A stretch of DNA of 64,000 nt from contig NW_008805064.1 in NCBI RefSeq assembly GCF_000004825.1, forward strand, positions 2,976,001-3,040,000, in the 5' to 3' direction. The DNA comes from Heterostelium album PN500. Taxonomy: Eukaryota; Evosea; Eumycetozoa; Acytosteliales; Acytosteliaceae. Made by a program: the position numbers and the translations under genes. Positions 18,245 to 63,109 of the stretch are shown piece by piece. Under the pieces are notes generated by a model. The model worked only from the letters and a program-made list of their open reading frames with translations. It was not told where the DNA came from and did not search any database. Position 1 is the first letter of the stretch, and every line of letters begins with the position of its first letter.

Positions 18245-19697
18245 TACTTACAACTTTGATATAAAATTAGGAATTACTTTTAGGAATAGTTTTGGTACAA
18301 GAAATATGGATTTAATAAATGTAATAAAGTTTAGAGATATAATTTACAGGATAAGATTTAAAGATAATAATTTATTTGATTTACAATTTGAAGATAAGAA
18401 TAATATTTGATAGTGTTGAATAAATGTCGGATTGTTGTTTAACAGTTGGATTATTAACTTTAGTTATTTGAATCGCTTCAATAAACTGTTTGAATTGTGA
18501 TCGTTGAATTCTTAATAATCATTGAAGTGTGAGTTGATTTGATTATTATAATTCTAAAATGTTAATTTTAGAACAGTAGTTTTCTTGCTTTTTGAAGCAG
18601 TTGTCTTCTCGACATTTGTTCACCATTTGGAAGTGTAATCGTTTGTTTGTTGTTCAGCAAAGTTAGTCCAATCGATTTGTAAACCATTCTTCGTCTATGA
18701 CCTATTCTTAGTGATTCCAATAATAGTTGTTGTTTTGTCATTCGAACACCATTATGGAGTGTTATTGTTTCATACCGAGATAGTGTAATGGCAAGGTTAT
18801 AATATGAATGGTATATGCTGGGATCACATTCTATTGCTTTCAAGTATAATTGTTGTTCTGTCATTGATTGTCCATTATTAAGTGTTATCGATTCACCTCT
18901 TGAAAGTGTAATTGCAAGGTTATGATATGAAATTGAATTGGTTGGATCAAATTCAATTGATTTCAAGTATAGTTGTTGTTTTGTCATTGATTGTCCATTA
19001 TTAAGTGTGATTGATTCACCTCTTGAAAGTGTCGTTGCAAGGTTATAATATGAATTGGAATTGGTTGGATCACATTCTATTGATTTCAAGTATAGTTGTT
19101 GTTTTGTCATTGATTGTCCATTATTAAGTGTGATTGATTCGCCATTTGAAAGTGTATTTGCAAGGTTATAATATAAATATGAATTTTTTGGATCACATTC
19201 TATTGATTTCAAGAATAGTTGTTGTGCAGTCATTGATTGTCCGTTATTAAGTGTGATTGATTCACCATTTGAAAGTGTATTTGCAAGGCTATAATAAGAA
19301 CTGTGACTGGTTGGATCATACTCTATTGATTTCAAGTATAATTGTTGTACAGTCATTGATTGTCCATTATTAAGTGTGATTGATGATCGATTTTCAGCTT
19401 TAAGTATTAATGCCAACTGGTAATAAGTATTAGCATAGCTTGGATAAAGATCGATTACTTTTAATAAAAGTTGTTCTTTCGTTGTTGATTCACCTGATGG
19501 TAGCACAATTGTTTGTTGATCTCTATTAACATGATCAAATGCCATTACAAGTTGGAGAAGCGCATCATTATCAACATTTGAACTGATATTATTCTGATCA
19601 TGTTTTCTTTTCATTGTTTTTTAATATATATGAATAATCTTTTGATATCAATTATCTAAATATCGATAAATAAGAAAAATATTTAAAGTGTGGTAAT
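18245..19697 (-). repeat. Long inverted duplication, arm A
   Basis: The TPR-like gene and its flanks at 18245-19697 are the reverse complement of material at about 60752-63433. Homology includes ~80 bases upstream of the ATG (a tract with tatcgatatttagataattg) and about 320 bases of 3' flank, ending near 18245 and 63433. The arms differ mainly in the number of 123-base coding repeats. Confidence 0.9.
18568..19614 (-). CDS. TPR-like repeat protein with 41-residue units, copy A (8 units)
   Basis: Single exon, 348 residues, starting MKRKHDQNNISSNVDND. From residue ~35 to the end it is a tandem array of seven full units plus a partial last one. Each 41-residue unit has a Ser/Asn/Gly turn with short beta-like strands (S.GESITLNNGQSMT) followed by a TPR-like helical pair core (QQLYLKSIE.DP....SYYNLA.TL). 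The end units diverge (TIVLPSGESTTKEQ at the start; TITLPNGEQMSRRQL at the end), typical of capping repeats. No signal peptide or membrane segment. Probably a cytosolic or nuclear protein-binding scaffold; no function can be assigned. The start is supported by identical sequence in copy B. A DNA transposon lies just upstream of it. Confidence 0.8.
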   Translation of the reverse strand: MKRKHDQNNISSNVDNDALLQLVMAFDHVNRDQQTIVLPSGESTTKEQLLLKVIDLYPSYANTYYQLALILKAENRSSITLNNGQSMTVQQLYLKSIEYDPTSHSSYYSLANTLSNGESITLNNGQSMTAQQLFLKSIECDPKNSYLYYNLANTLSNGESITLNNGQSMTKQQLYLKSIECDPTNSNSYYNLATTLSRGESITLNNGQSMTKQQLYLKSIEFDPTNSISYHNLAITLSRGESITLNNGQSMTEQQLYLKAIECDPSIYHSYYNLAITLSRYETITLHNGVRMTKQQLLLESLRIGHRRRMVYKSIGLTLLNNKQTITLPNGEQMSRRQLLQKARKLLF

Positions 19698-19771
19698 TGA
19701 TAAAAACAGTTTCGTTTTGATCCCTCAACACCTAAACAAAACTGGCTCTTGCCTGTAACCTTGATAATATT

Positions 19772-19931
19772 GTTGGAAATTAAGGTCGAAAAAGTAAAAA
19801 AAGTAAAAAAAAAAAGTCGAAAAAGTCGAAAAATTTTATATGGTGAACCACATTAAATTAATATGAGTCAAACAATACAAAAAATTGATTTATTGCAAAA
19901 AATACTTTTATTGTTATTTCCTCATATCAAC
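19772..19931 (+). repeat. Left terminal inverted repeat of the DNA transposon
   Basis: Pairs with 21968-22128. Starts GTTGGAAATTAAGGTCG and contains A-rich runs separated by gtcgaaaaa motifs, which may be transposase sub-sites. It ends 31 bases before the transposase ATG and so includes most of its promoter. Confidence 0.92.
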
Positions 19932-19962
19932 TTTTATAGTAAATTAAGATATTCTATTTAAA

Positions 19963-21985
19963 ATGTCTAAGTTATCAAATAATTTGACATGTATAGTTTG
20001 TGAAAAAAAAACGTATTCGATTAAGGAGTTTACACTTCATGGAGCTAATGAATGCATTCCAGACTTATTTGAATACTTTGGACTTCCAAAAGTAACAAAT
20101 ATTATGGAGCTATTGGAGGCACAAGAGAAAGTTGCGCAATTAGAGGAGCAGATAAATTCTTTAAAAGTTAAATTGGAAAGTGCAAAGACTAAGAAAAGAA
20201 GGTTGTCTATTGGTTCGACCTCTAGTACTTTCATGGATGAGGACCAATCATATCATTCACAAACATCAACAACAACAACATCATCAACACCAACTACATC
20301 ATCAACACCAACACCAATACCAAAACCAGCACTAACATCAACATCTAACTGTAACACTCCTGCGGCATTCAAAATCAAAGAAGAAAATAAACAAGAACAA
20401 TTTGATTATAGAATAGTATATGGTTCAGACAATATTGACATTGATAATAGTGAAGAGCCTAATTCTTGCTACCTTTCCCAAACGCTCATGCTTGAGTCTT
20501 CTCACGATAAGAGTATTCAGCCGGTCTTCAAATGTGGCATTCCTTCAAAAGGAGCAAACAGAGTCGTAGTTGTTAATGGTGATGTCTATATGGCAACTGT
20601 CTGCAAATTAAGTCACTTTAATGACCAGCAGGTCGTTCAATTATTGCAGTCTGCACTCCATATCGCAAATCCCAATACAAAAGATTCGTTAGTGGGTGTT
20701 GATAAATCATTAATTGACAAGTGTTCCAATTGTGGACAGAAGTGCACCACAAGAATCAAAGCTAAATCATCATGTATGCCTCCTGTTCCCGGATCCTATA
20801 TCCACTTTTGTACCTATAATTGTATGGTGGCATATCTTAGCAAAACATCTGCAGGAGTATGGAAAAATAAAGCAGACGAGTTATATAAACTAATATATCC
20901 ATTGGATTCAAAAGAAAAGAACAGCAAAGAGAAAGAGAAAGTAAAGAAGTGCAAGGAGAAAGAGAAAGTAATGAAGAGCAAGGAGAAAGAGGAAGAAGAA
21001 GAAGACGATGAAGAAGATGATGAAGACGAAGTGAAAGATGATAAAAAAGAAACTGAACAAGTTAAAGGTACTAGAAAAAATCCAACAAGAAATAAAAAAA
21101 AAAATTAACCTTATATTTTTATTTTAAATAGTAACAGATCATTATTTAAATACTTTGTCTCAAGCAGACTTAAAGTCACTGATAGGTTTATCTTTAAATG
21201 ACTTCAATAAGTTATTTGATTCAGTATTGAAACATAAAAAAAACATTGAAATTAAAAAAAAATCTAACCGAGGTAGAAAGCCACTCTATCCCTTAAAAGG
21301 GAAGCTGTTTATCACTCTCGTTTATTTAAAACACTATGTCAAGTCAATAATCACATCAATAATCTTTGGAATATCAAGGAGCACAGCTGAGGAATATTAC
21401 AACGAAATAATCGATTTAATGTATGAAATGTCACTGGAATCTTTTAAACATTTGGTAACCTCTGTCGTTGATGGATCCGAACAAAGAGTTGTTGTACCTT
21501 TGGATGAAGAAGAAAAGATTAACTTTTACAGTGGAAAAAAAGGATTTTCATCAATAACCAAATTGGTATTCGCAAGTCCAGACGGAAAGATTCAGCATAT
21601 GGCTGAATCTCGACCAGGTTCCAGGAATGATCAAGGAATGATGTACGAAGTCGATGAATTTCTCAAATCTTTCGATGATTCATGGGAGTACATAATGGGA
21701 GACAAAGGATTTCAAGGATCACACCATTTATACAAAAAATTTATAGTTATTGACAGGGAAAATAGAAAGGATGGAAAAGAGGATAGCTTAAAAGAAGCAG
21801 ATAATAGATTCAAGTCTGTAAGAATCATTATAGAAAATGTTTTTGCTCACATTAAAAAGTGGGCAATTACATGTAACTTTTTCAGATCAAAGGCTAAAAA
21901 TGTTAAACAATTGCTGCTGTCTCACCATAAAATATGGTGTTGTGTTGGACTATTGACTAATAGCTTTGTTGATATGAGGAAATAA
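19963..21985 (+). CDS. Transposase, two exons: zinc-finger N-terminal half plus DDE_Tnp_4-type catalytic half
   Basis: Exons 19963-21067 and 21132-21985, joined over a 64-nt A+T-rich GT-AG intron, give a 652-residue frame; unspliced, the first part stops at 21108 and the second lacks its own ATG. N-terminus: a C2HC cluster (CIVCEKK...LHGANEC), a coiled coil (~50-80), a Ser/Thr linker, a second Cys cluster (KCSNCGQKC...HFCTYNC) and a Lys/Glu/Asp-rich tail. C-terminal half: an HTH-like region (GLSLNDFNKLF...IFGISRSTAEEYY), then Asp in VVDGSEQRV, FYSGKKG, GSRNDQGM, Asp in GDKGFQG and Glu in IIENVFAHIKKW. All three catalytic acids are present. The last 18 bases lie in the right terminal repeat. 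Confidence 0.85.
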
Positions 21986-22128
21986 CAATAAAAGTATTTT
22001 TTGCAATAAATCAATTTTTTGTATTGTTTGACTCATATTAATTTAATGTGGTTCACCATATAAAATTTTCTCGACTTTTTCGACTTTTTTTTTTTGCTTT
22101 TTTTACTTTTTCGACCTTAATTTCCAAC
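21968..22128 (-). repeat. Right terminal inverted repeat of the DNA transposon
   Basis: Reverse complement of 19772-19931 with a few differences. Its inner end overlaps the last codons and stop of the transposase gene. Confidence 0.92.
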
Positions 22129-22134
22129 AATATT

Positions 22135-23409
22135 ATGACTCCCATTTTTGAACCCCACTCACACTTTGATTTTATCTAAACAACAACAAAAATCAGCAAA
22201 TCAATTAATTGTTTTTTTTATTATTTTTTTTTTAATTTTATTTTTTTTTCACTATTTAAGAGAATGAATTGTCATGGGTTTGTTCAAAAATACTTTTATT
22301 TATAAATATTTATAACCTCTATTGGATTTTGAAAGTAGATGGCTTCAGATTGAAATAAGAGTGTTTCATCAACTCTCATTCGCTCAAGAACTGAAATGCT
22401 TTCAAGGTGAGAATGAAAATCAAAAACTTGAGTTTCTATATACCAACATATGTTAGGATGGTATTTATTTAACCAACTCAAATCATGAGGAAAGTAAAGG
22501 TATGCTCCTATCCACACCAAGTTATATTTTCAACAAAATCCATGCTCTTTTCAATAAAGAAAACCTTACATTCCACAATGCCAATTTATTAATGAAAACA
22601 ATAGCTGTTGCAAAATTAAAAGAAGTTTTGCATAACATGGAATTCTTCATTAAAGATCGACTCATGGAATCAACAGTAAAGAATATGAGACCATACTGTG
22701 TTGGATCTATCTCACCTGGTATTTTCAATGATTACTTGATGAATCAATCACATGAAATAAATTTTCAATATGTAATTGAAAACGAATCTTACTCGTCGAA
22801 TGATACCAAAATGTCAGTTATTATACATCACTACAAGTGCACTCTACTTGACCCAAATGGAGAGAGAAGTTACAAGTATCCAAATTTATATATAATTTAT
22901 ATATATAATTTTGGAACATACTTTTGTTTTATTTCATTTATTTTTGATTTCATACTAATATTCAAATACTAGTATTCGATCAACTTTCTATTCTTTGAAA
23001 TCAAAAGTTGCGTAATATCAACAATTAGAGCAAACGGAACATGAAATTGAAAGTAAATTCAAAGAGTTGCATGAATTCCTTGTTGTAGAATAACATCTTG
23101 ATACTCTTCAAACCACCTCACATACTGTCAATATTCAAAACCTATATTCGCTCAATGGCATGAATACAAACGTGTTCTGTCCACAATAATATTATTTGTA
23201 TAAAATGTTTTGTCTCCAATTATTTATAATAAATAAAATAAATCTAATAGTTTATGATAAATTGCGTTCAATGATTTTTGTTTGATTACAAGGTGTCCAA
23301 CAATGGTAGTGTAAAAAAGGTGGAATCAAAAAATAAATGAGATTAAGATGTTTTTGAATTGGAAAAGAATTTATAGTAATAGGGTTGATTAGTTGTTTGT
23401 TGGAAAAAC
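22135..23409. pseudogene. Region with oppositely oriented gene fragments
   Basis: Minus strand 22296-22510 reads as the tail of a protein (WLNKYHPNICWYIETQVFDF, LERMRVDETLLFQ) ending in a stop. Directly next to it, plus strand 22502-22930 reads NKIHALFNKENLTFHNANLL and on to VENMRPYC-like sequence (KNMRPYCVGSISPGIF) and HHYKCTLLDPNGERSY before dissolving into A+T-rich DNA. Neither has a recognisable domain, and the head-on arrangement suggests truncated or rearranged relics. The rest, to 23409, is A+T-rich with no gene seen. Confidence 0.35.
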
Positions 23410-60411: not shown

Positions 60412-60751
60412 GAAGATAAAATAAGTTAAATGAGAAGTTTTTTTTGATCGATCAAAAAATTTATTTTTGTTTTTTTTACCTGTTCGTTTTGGTTCTTAGC
60501 ATAATTAAATATCTCTACCCTAGATACTTTTAAATAATTTTGTATTATCTAGTATGATTATACTTATTTATTTTTATAATTATGGAAACTTTATTATTTA
60601 GTGAATTTGAAAAATTCATGGAATCTTATGTTGGTACCAAAAATGAAAGAGTAAAAAAAATAGAAGCTAATAAAATATGATAAAGATACTTATTTTAATA
60701 ACCCCTCTATTTTTTAATTTTTACTTTTACTTTTTTTTATACTTTTAGTAC
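60412..60751. other. Short intergenic region with a 32-codon frame
   Basis: Between two divergent genes. A small plus-strand frame at 60582-60680 (METLLFSEFEKFMESYVGTK and on) has coding-like helix composition but no known family; it may be a relic or chance. Confidence 0.3.
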
Positions 60752-60831
60752 CACATTTTACATATTTTTCTTTATTTATCGATATTTAGATAATTGATAT
60801 CAAAAGATTATTCATATATCATTAAAAAACA

Positions 60832-63109
60832 ATGAAAAGAAAACATGATCAGAATAATATCAGTTCAAATGTTGATAATGATGCGCTTCTCCAACTTGTA
60901 ATGGCATTTGATCATGTTAATAGAGATCAACAAACAATTGTGCTACCATCAGGTGAATCAACAACGAAAGAACAACTTTTATTAAAAGTAATCGATCTTT
61001 ATCCAAGCTATGCTAATACTTATTACCAGTTGGCATTAATACTTAAAGCTGAAAATCGATCATCAATCACACTTAATAATGGACAATCAATGACAAAACA
61101 ACAATTATACTTGAAATCAATAGAGTATGATCCAACCAGTCACAGTTCTTATTATAATCTTGCAAATACACTTTCAAATGGTCAATCAATCACACTTAAT
61201 AATGGACAATCAATGACAAAACAACAATTATTCTTGAAATCAATAGAATGCAATCCAACATATTCCAATTCATATCATAACCTTGCAATTACACTTTCAA
61301 ATGGTGAATCAATCACATTAAATAATGGAACAACAATGACTCAACAACAACTATACTTGAAATCAATAGAAAGTAATCCAAAAAATTTATATTCATATCT
61401 TAACCTTGCAACGACACTTTCAAATGGTGAATCAACCACACTTAATGATGGACAATCAATGACAAAACAACAACTAATCTTGAAATCAATAGAATATGAA
61501 CCAACATATTATCTGTCATATTTTAGCCTTGCAAATACACTTTCAAATGGTGAATCAATCACACTTAATAATGGACAATCAATTATAGAACAACAACTAT
61601 ACTTGAAATCAATAGAATGCAATCCAACATATTATCGGTCATATTATAACCTTGCAACGACACTTTCAAATGGTGAATCAATCACACTTAATGATAGAAC
61701 AACAATGACAGAACAACAATTATACTTGAAATCAATAGAATGTAATCCAACATATTCATATTCATATCATAACCTTGCAACGACACTTTCAAATGGTGAA
61801 TCAATCACACTTAATAATGGACAATCAATGACTGCACAACAATTATACTTGAAATCAATAGAATGTGATCCAACCCAATTCCAATTCATATTATAACCTT
61901 GCAACGACACTTTCAAATGGTGAATCAATCACACTTAATGATGGACAATCAATGACAAAACAACAATTATACTTGAAATCAATAGAATGTGATCCAACTG
62001 ATTCAAATTCATATAATAGGCTTGCAATTACACTTTCAAGAGGTGAATCGATAACACTTAATAATGGACAATCAATGACTGTACAACAATTATACTTGAA
62101 ATCAATAGAGTATGATCCAACCAGTCACAGTTCTTATTATAATCTTGCAAATACACTTTCAAATGGTCAATCAATCACACTTAATAACGGACAATCAATG
62201 ACAAAACAACAATTATTCTTGAAATCAATAGAATGCAATCCAACATATTCCAATTCATATCATAACCTTGCAACAACACTTTCAAGAGGTGAATCAATCA
62301 CACTTAATGATGGAACAACAATGACACAACAACAATTATACTTGGAATCAATAGAATGTGATCCAACCAATTCCAATTCATATCATAACCTTGCAACGAC
62401 ACTTTCAAATGGTGAATCAATCACACTTAATGATGGACAATCAATGACAAAACAACAATTATACTTGAAATCAATTGAATGTGATCCAACCAATTCATAT
62501 TCATATCATAACCTTGCAACGACACTTTCAAATGGTGAATCAATCACACTTAATAATGGACAATCAATGACAAAACAACAATTATACTTGAAATCAATAG
62601 AATGTGATCCAACCAATTCATATTCATATCATAGCCTTACAAATACACTTTCAAGAGGTGAATCAATCACACTTAATAATGGACAATCAATGACTGTACA
62701 ACAATTATACTTGAAATCAATAGAATGTGATCCAACCAATTCCGATTCGTATTATAAACTTTTAATTACACTTTCAAGAGGTGAATCAATCATTCTTAAT
62801 AACGGACAATCAATGACTCAACAACAATTATACTTGAAATTAATAGAATGTGATCCCAGCAAATACGATTCATATTATAACCTTGCCATTACACTATCTC
62901 GGTATGAAACAATAACACTCCATAATGGTGTTCGAATGACAAAACAACAACTATTATTGGAATCACTAAGAATAGGTCATAGACGAAGAATGGTTTACAA
63001 ATCGATTGGACTAACTTTGCTGAACAACAAACAAACGATTACACTTCCAAATGGTGAACAAATGTCGAGAAGACAACTGCTTCAAAAAGCAAGAAAACTA
63101 CTGTTCTAA
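60832..63109 (+). pseudogene. TPR-like repeat protein with 41-residue units, copy B (about 18 units, one frame break)
   Basis: The first ~75 residues and the last two units are nearly identical to copy A, but the array is longer: about seventeen full units plus a terminal partial unit. The frame opened at 60832 closes at 61896, and the next unit continues in another frame to 63109. The break is at about 61871-61880, where the text has caaccc while the corresponding place in other units has caacc, i.e. one additional C. Units before and after are otherwise open and in good register, so this may be a very recent mutation or a sequence error. Within the array, units 2-3 and 10-11 are nearly the same block. 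If intact it would be ~758 residues. Confidence 0.75.
61021..62960 (+). repeat. Tandem 123-base coding repeats (copy B array)
   Basis: About 16 direct repeats of 123 bases, most carrying tcaatcacacttaataatgg and caacaattatacttgaaatc. Copy A has about six such central repeats on the minus strand at ~18760-19390. The high similarity makes this region prone to slippage and to misassembly. Confidence 0.9.

Follow-up and report, generated by a model that had tools for sequence, protein, structure and literature searches.

The locus discussed here raises three questions: what kind of element occupies it, where that element begins and ends, and whether it can still move. It lies in a stretch of 64,000 nucleotides of the Heterostelium album PN500 genome, all of which is referred to below as the window (GC 31.9%). 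The assembly searched for relatives comprises 32,926,113 bases in 39 contigs. Judged by its ends, its gene and its copies, the element is a genuine DNA transposon, rare in its genome, and its features are collected in Table 1. The long, nearly identical inverted repeats described in the first-pass annotation are present. In the repeat listing, 19830-19931 pairs with 21968-22069 at 100% and 19764-19837 with 22063-22136 at 96%, and a single substitution and a 1-nt indel are all that separates the arms of ~168 nt. An Rfam scan of 19300-22600 at gathering scores returned no matches.

Table 1. Features of the transposon and its target site (window coordinates)
Feature	Position	Strand	Basis
Left target duplication copy, TGA	19762..19764		letters; TSA-TAAT layout of the four both-end copies; empty sites
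Transposon, 2,371 bp, termini 5'-TAATATTGTTGG...CCAACAATATTA-3'	19765..22135	+	terminal inverted repeat (TIR) pairing; comparison with other copies
Left TIR, 167 nt	19765..19931	+	repeat listing and arm alignment
Exon 1: C2HC-like finger, coiled-coil-like/low-complexity stretch, second cysteine cluster, acidic/basic tail (by eye)	19963..21067	+	open reading frame, splice reading
Putative zinc finger 1, C10-x2-C13-x12-H26-x4-C31	19990..20055	+	sequence, by eye; spacing same in the C17 relative
Putative zinc finger 2, C254-x2-C257-x3-C261...C283-x3-C287	20722..20823	+	sequence, by eye; last position His in C17/C3b
Probable 64-nt intron GTACTA...AAATAG, GT-AG	21068..21131	+	frame analysis
Exon 2, catalytic half of the transposase	21132..21985	+	frame and profile analysis
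HTH_Tnp_4 match, E 2.1e-14	21284..21430	+	Pfam
TTT at the junction of the missing 66 bp (22 codons)	21451..21453	+	comparison with relatives
DDE_Tnp_4 match; catalytic D 21470-21472, D 21701-21703, E 21833-21835	21467..21913	+	Pfam, alignment
Right TIR, 168 nt	21968..22135	-	repeat listing and arm alignment
Right target duplication copy, TGA	22136..22138		same basis as the left copy

Relatives of the element were found within its own genome. Thirteen copy loci were examined. The genome search returned 14 regions, two of which are empty sites; the remaining 12 and the window make up the thirteen. Copies are labelled by their contigs in this genome (C25, C17, C3 and so on), C3b being the copy C3:1472k. 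Both ends are present in four of the 13 (the window, C25:697k, C17:883k and C3:1472k), and all four follow the layout TSA-TAATAWTG...CAWTATTA-TSA with identical three letters on the two sides; in gene direction, each has TGA on both sides. Three further loci preserve a single end, which is preceded by TSA at C4:847k and, with an altered second TIR base, at C3:2118k, while the third, at C11, shows TGC in gene direction. When 22 DDE_Tnp_4 loci were scanned for inverted ends with a matching TNA, a scan that presupposes TNA, a convincing pair was seen only at C25, C17 and C3b.

This layout moves the borders of the element from 19766 and 22134, the outer edges of a supposed 6-bp AATATT duplication, outward to the positions in Table 1. 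AATATT does stand on both sides, at 19766-19771 and 22129-22134. Nevertheless, it is palindromic and runs on into the TIRs, and at its place C17 and C3:1472k have AATAAT at the left end and ATTATT at the right end, a pair that forms no direct repeat. It is also absent, together with the element, from C14 and C7, which are paralogs of the window's flanks. Joining these flanks with a single TGA gives CTTGACTCCC; the C14 empty site reads CTTTACCCCC, and the C7 site has gaps right at the insertion point. As paralogs, the two sites match the right flank at 91% over 82 nt (C14) and 83% over 181 nt (C7). Flank searches for C25, C17 and C3b recovered no empty site; the right flank of C17 is repeated, not across the site. 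Because the paralogous empty sites lack AATATT and the relatives read AATAAT/ATTATT, the hexamer is placed inside the element, and the reading of a 6-bp duplication that would set the lineage apart from PIF/Harbinger is almost certainly wrong. A palindromic element end had been misread as a target duplication, and the empty sites and relatives settle that question. The empty-site comparison thus changed the borders and left the transposon itself standing.

The target duplication is best read, from the copies and empty sites, as 3-bp TSA (TGA/TCA), of the TNA type. The same letters would also fit a 1-bp duplication (G or C) whose target is a fixed T-S-A, the termini then being ATAAT...ATTAT. 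This is an improbable reading, since it needs a fixed T and A additionally on either side, and 3-bp duplications are published within the superfamily: TWA for PIF/Harbinger, ANT for Pangu, CWG for NuwaI and TNA for NuwaII (PMC4482050), though the range given for the superfamily is 0-4 bp (PMC10045372). A 2-bp TA duplication was rejected: although it fits letters within the ends, the both-end copies share the TAATA stretch and the empty sites lack it. With the 3-bp TSA duplication preferred, the target site gives no argument for an unrelated lineage. The earlier statement that the duplication is not PIF/Harbinger-like therefore falls, as TSA is a TNA site like those of PHIS/Harbinger kin, though not a strict TWA.

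The empty sites came to light through a recurring upstream stretch, which is probably promoter-like. It is seen as ACAAAACTGGCTC at the window, C14 and C12 sites and as CCCATTTTTGAACCC at the window, C14 and C7 sites; the coordinates are 19734-19763 and 22138-22316 in the window, C14:715137-715229, C7:452519-452692 and, in C12, near 1185.1k.

The gene inside the element had been called open, with the three catalytic acids in VVDGSE, GDKGFQ and IIENVF. All three acids are found in the open catalytic exon. The frame as a whole is open only if the 64-nt intron is spliced, as a stop at 21106-21108 otherwise closes the frame of exon 1; with the intron removed, a single open frame of 652 residues runs to 21985. 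Alternative acceptors ending at 21137, 21164 and 21167 likewise keep the frame, and we infer the exact intron from the frame analysis. C17 also needs an intron near the same place with different splice sites, and the intron position differs between the subfamilies. A spliced transposase gene of two exons is thus probable on these frames. Both subfamilies carry a stop between the frames, at almost the same position, and it could instead separate two proteins, a DNA-binding partner and a transposase as in PIF/Harbinger. This is distinctly unlikely, as no ATG of the second frame precedes the HTH (the earliest is at 21419) and plausible splice pairs restore a single frame in both the window and C17. 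Programmed frameshifting from one frame to the other was likewise set aside, because in C17 the frames stand in a different register to each other than in the window. Besides the exons, the element contains a single open reading frame of at least 60 aa; it has 65 aa and lies on the minus strand within exon 1.

The spliced chain, as we prefer to read it, carries a catalytic half of the IS5/DDE_Tnp_4 type, as had been proposed. The DDE_Tnp_4 match of exon 2 (E 1.1e-19) and its HTH_Tnp_4 match both lie above the Pfam cut-off, bacterial IS5-type proteins match, and the catalytic acids align; NCBIfam IS5-family profiles match exon 2 weakly, below their cut-offs. In exon 1 the Pfam scan gave nothing above cut-off, and neither exon gave a Pfam match to Myb/SANT, THAP or YqaJ. 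The C-x2-C-x12-H-x4-C motif and the second cysteine cluster are also present in the C17 relative. A search of solved structures with exon 2 gave no match, and the predicted structure of this exon (pLDDT 37) is uninformative and is the basis of no claim. Further structure matches were taken as chance, namely eight with E up to 1 for the profile A2 (TAL-effector/TALE repeat proteins, TOD entries) and four with E 0.15-0.41 for exon 1.

In a tblastn search with exon 2, 111 plasmid records match, and in 35 of them a single match spans at least 80% of the query. Of the 111, the best 20 cover 73-92% of the query at 22-28% identity; Streptomyces and cyanobacteria are prominent among the plasmid matches, and one phage record matches. 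Nine proteins were aligned, three from the own genome and six bacterial or phage proteins picked among the 21 matches listed. All nine share the first D and the E; the second D is present in eight of them and is replaced by N in the damaged C3b. All six bacterial or phage relatives scanned carry HTH_Tnp_4 together with DDE_Tnp_4. At the loci of related bacterial insertion sequences, a 3-bp duplication, AAT or ATT, was parsed in four of eight, two of the four being sister copies in Leptolyngbya; at the other four no 3-bp duplication was parsed.

The ends of L095, L096 and L098 (about 408-1423), cyanobacterial IS5-type elements and one cyanophage, read AGAGTTGTTGG, with one L098 end reading AGAGCTGTTGG; L099-L101 end in AGACATCTCC or AGACCTCTCC. 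The former three share TTGTTGG with the TIR of the window, which may be chance. Short, narrow patterns fit 262 stretches in viral_contigs and 133 in genome_contigs, none confirmed as relatives. The own genome holds 26 DDE_Tnp_4 matches, comprising the described copies and others, e.g. C4:1296098-1296562, and three of the matches have an open frame of 165 residues (C11:287083, C3:619 and C10:335860). The additional loci may be further transposon families; a scan of C4:1296098 for inverted ends gave no convincing pair.

The copies of the element are few in the genome, and the both-end copies form two subfamilies. Identities over aligned bases, gaps set aside, are 96.5% (exon 1) and 97.8% (exon 2) between the window and C25, 98.5% and 98.2% between C17 and C3:1472k, and 49.5% and 65.7% between the window and C17. 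Within subfamilies the divergence is near neutral: dN is 0.037 and dS 0.046 for window/C25 exon 1 (350 codons), and dN is 0.022 and dS 0.021 for C17/C3:1472k exon 2 (169 codons). Between subfamilies, window/C17 exon 2 gives dN 0.23 with dS beyond the range of the method (199 codons), which is consistent with past selection on the protein.

End patterns were counted against reversed controls in the own genome, and these counts showed no family of miniature derivatives. The pattern of the window's ends occurs with at most two mismatches at five places, two of which are the window itself, and with three mismatches at 25; its reversed control finds 16 places in all vs 30. The C17/C3b pattern occurs exactly at four places, which are the ends of those two copies, and with three mismatches at 38 vs 30 in the control.

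The suggestion that the element is young and possibly autonomous is weakened by these comparisons. Compared with its relatives, the window copy has an in-frame gap of 66 bp (22 residues) immediately ahead of the first catalytic D. Five other copies of the own genome were found covering this stretch, which is whole in C25, C17 and C3:1472k and partial in C11 and C3:2118k; autonomy is doubtful for this reason. The gap might be harmless and the copy intact and autonomous. Its frame is open after splicing, the catalytic acids are present and the TIRs are near-identical; moreover, the gap lies outside both Pfam matches, and the bacterial relative L102 has a short linker at the same place. Set against this are the whole or partial retention of the stretch in those five copies, the linkers of five of the six bacterial relatives, which fall short of the C17 linker by just a few residues, and the near-neutral divergence of window and C25 in exon 1. 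An intact, autonomous copy is thus unlikely, and the window copy is probably now inactive or mobilisable only in trans, as judged by the missing stretch. The remaining copies show stops, frame breaks or truncations or, in C3:1472k, an altered second catalytic D; among the best 40 of 101 candidates scored, no plainly working copy was seen in the assembly.

The youth of the insertion is likewise unproven. The near-identical TIRs speak for it, and the left flank shared with C9 may mean an older insertion. At C9:1395k, the window's left flank continues up to CCCTCA (19722-19727). Next come a gap, an element end that lacks its initial letters, and the 3' end of the transposase gene in reverse. This arrangement could be due to an inversion through the long TIRs or to a second insertion. 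C9 could derive from the occupied site by duplication and rearrangement, in which case the insertion would be older than its TIRs, perhaps homogenised, suggest; or it could be a separate insertion.

We also note the surroundings of these copies. At C9 the element end and reversed transposase 3' end occupy 1395712-1395939, beside the window-type left flank. The gene left of the element belongs to a repeat-bearing family with units of ~123 bp, TPR-like by eye, other members of which lie in the window (18568-19614 is the one beside the element; another is at about 60749-62973), at C9:1394311-1395707 and on other contigs. The element copies at the window, C9, C11 and C12:1184k lie close to family members or their flanking sequence, and some copies may therefore have spread by gene duplication rather than by transposition.

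With high confidence, the element would have moved by ordinary cut-and-paste transposition of the PHIS/IS5-like kind with a 3-bp TSA duplication, the window copy being probably inactive or mobilised in trans. This reading is based on the matching inverted ends, the DDE_Tnp_4 domain with its HTH, the copies at distinct TSA-flanked sites and the empty paralogous sites, from which we infer transposition activity. The transposase would bind the ends of the element through the HTH and probably also through the N-terminal zinc fingers. Its DDE site would then excise the element and join it to the target with a 3-bp stagger at TSA (TGA/TCA), and gap repair would leave the 3-bp duplication. The window copy, without the 22 residues before its first catalytic strand, would probably be inactive or be moved in trans by another copy.

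A literature search for dictyostelid DNA transposons, covering titles and the beginnings of abstracts with most subscription papers and Repbase outside its scope, gave no description of the element and no paper in which dictyostelid, Harbinger and transposon occur together; this absence from print is weak evidence. Among dictyostelid DNA transposons, Tdd-4/5 of D. discoideum are of the Ginger2 type (PMC2836005). A review states that D. discoideum DNA transposases have no significant similarity to known ones (PMC5633606), which the Ginger paper contradicts for Tdd-4/5. Sola2-type elements are known in D. fasciculatum and P. pallidum, and the Sola2-Fanzor chimeras of the latter have 21-bp TIRs and 4-bp target duplications (PMC3627910). 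Like these and the DDT, Tdd and Thug elements of D. discoideum, the present element is a dictyostelid DNA transposon. One of the PHIS type would widen the list of DNA transposons known from dictyostelids.

Set against the published group definitions, the element appears PHIS-like (PHIS/IS5 superfamily) and is filed under no single group, because it departs from every named group in one or more of the features tested. It fits PHIS in the broad sense by its DDE_Tnp_4/IS5-type transposase and by a target duplication within 0-4 bp (PMC10045372), whether 3-bp TSA or 1-bp S. With PIF/Harbinger, whose duplication is given as 3 bp (PMC9179366), it shares a DDE transposase with HTH and a 3-bp T-N-A duplication, a looser TNA pattern being termed classic Harbinger (PMC12477816). 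In contrast to the TWA of that group (PMC4482050), all four both-end copies have TGA/TCA. The second gene with Myb/SANT was not found here: the exons give no such Pfam match, and the one other frame of at least 60 aa is the 65-aa one within exon 1. The termini are TAAT, the TIRs are longer than most, and two putative zinc fingers lie in the transposase chain. The first TIR base, usually A or G in PIF/Harbinger, is T here under the 3-bp reading and A under the 1-bp reading.

NuwaII shares the DDE transposase and the 3-bp TNA duplication (PMC4482050), but the C before and G after it (CTNAG) are seen in none of the four both-end copies, the GG termini are lacking, and no Myb/SANT domain was found in the exons. 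ISL2EU resembles the element in having HTH and DDE behind an N-terminal zinc-finger region, which is THAP there and of another kind here, by eye; it differs by an AT duplication in AATT and by THAP and the YqaJ nuclease, neither of which was found in the two exons. Other groups differ in their target sites, namely Spy with no duplication and an AAATTT target, Pangu with ANT and NuwaI with CWG (all PMC4482050), PHISTA with TA (PMC12730594), and IS3EU with 6 bp, although TA-starting ends are common to IS3EU and the element (PMC10045372). Bacterial IS5-type elements are alike in HTH_Tnp_4 with DDE_Tnp_4, in the aligned catalytic acids at 22-28% identity and in the 3-bp duplications at four of the eight loci tested; their duplications are AAT/ATT (an ANT pattern), their TIRs are shorter, and zinc fingers or an intron were not seen in them.

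Through its TSA target and its transposase in one chain, the element would provide a modest natural test of the region with which a PHIS transposase reads the central base of TNA. As a tentative proposal, possible though on balance doubtful, the element may represent a separate PHIS lineage of dictyostelids. Its single intron-bearing transposase would then carry its own DNA-binding zinc fingers and have no partner protein, and the lineage would be marked by TAAT termini and by a target fixed as T-[G/C]-A in place of the AT-rich TWA of PIF/Harbinger.
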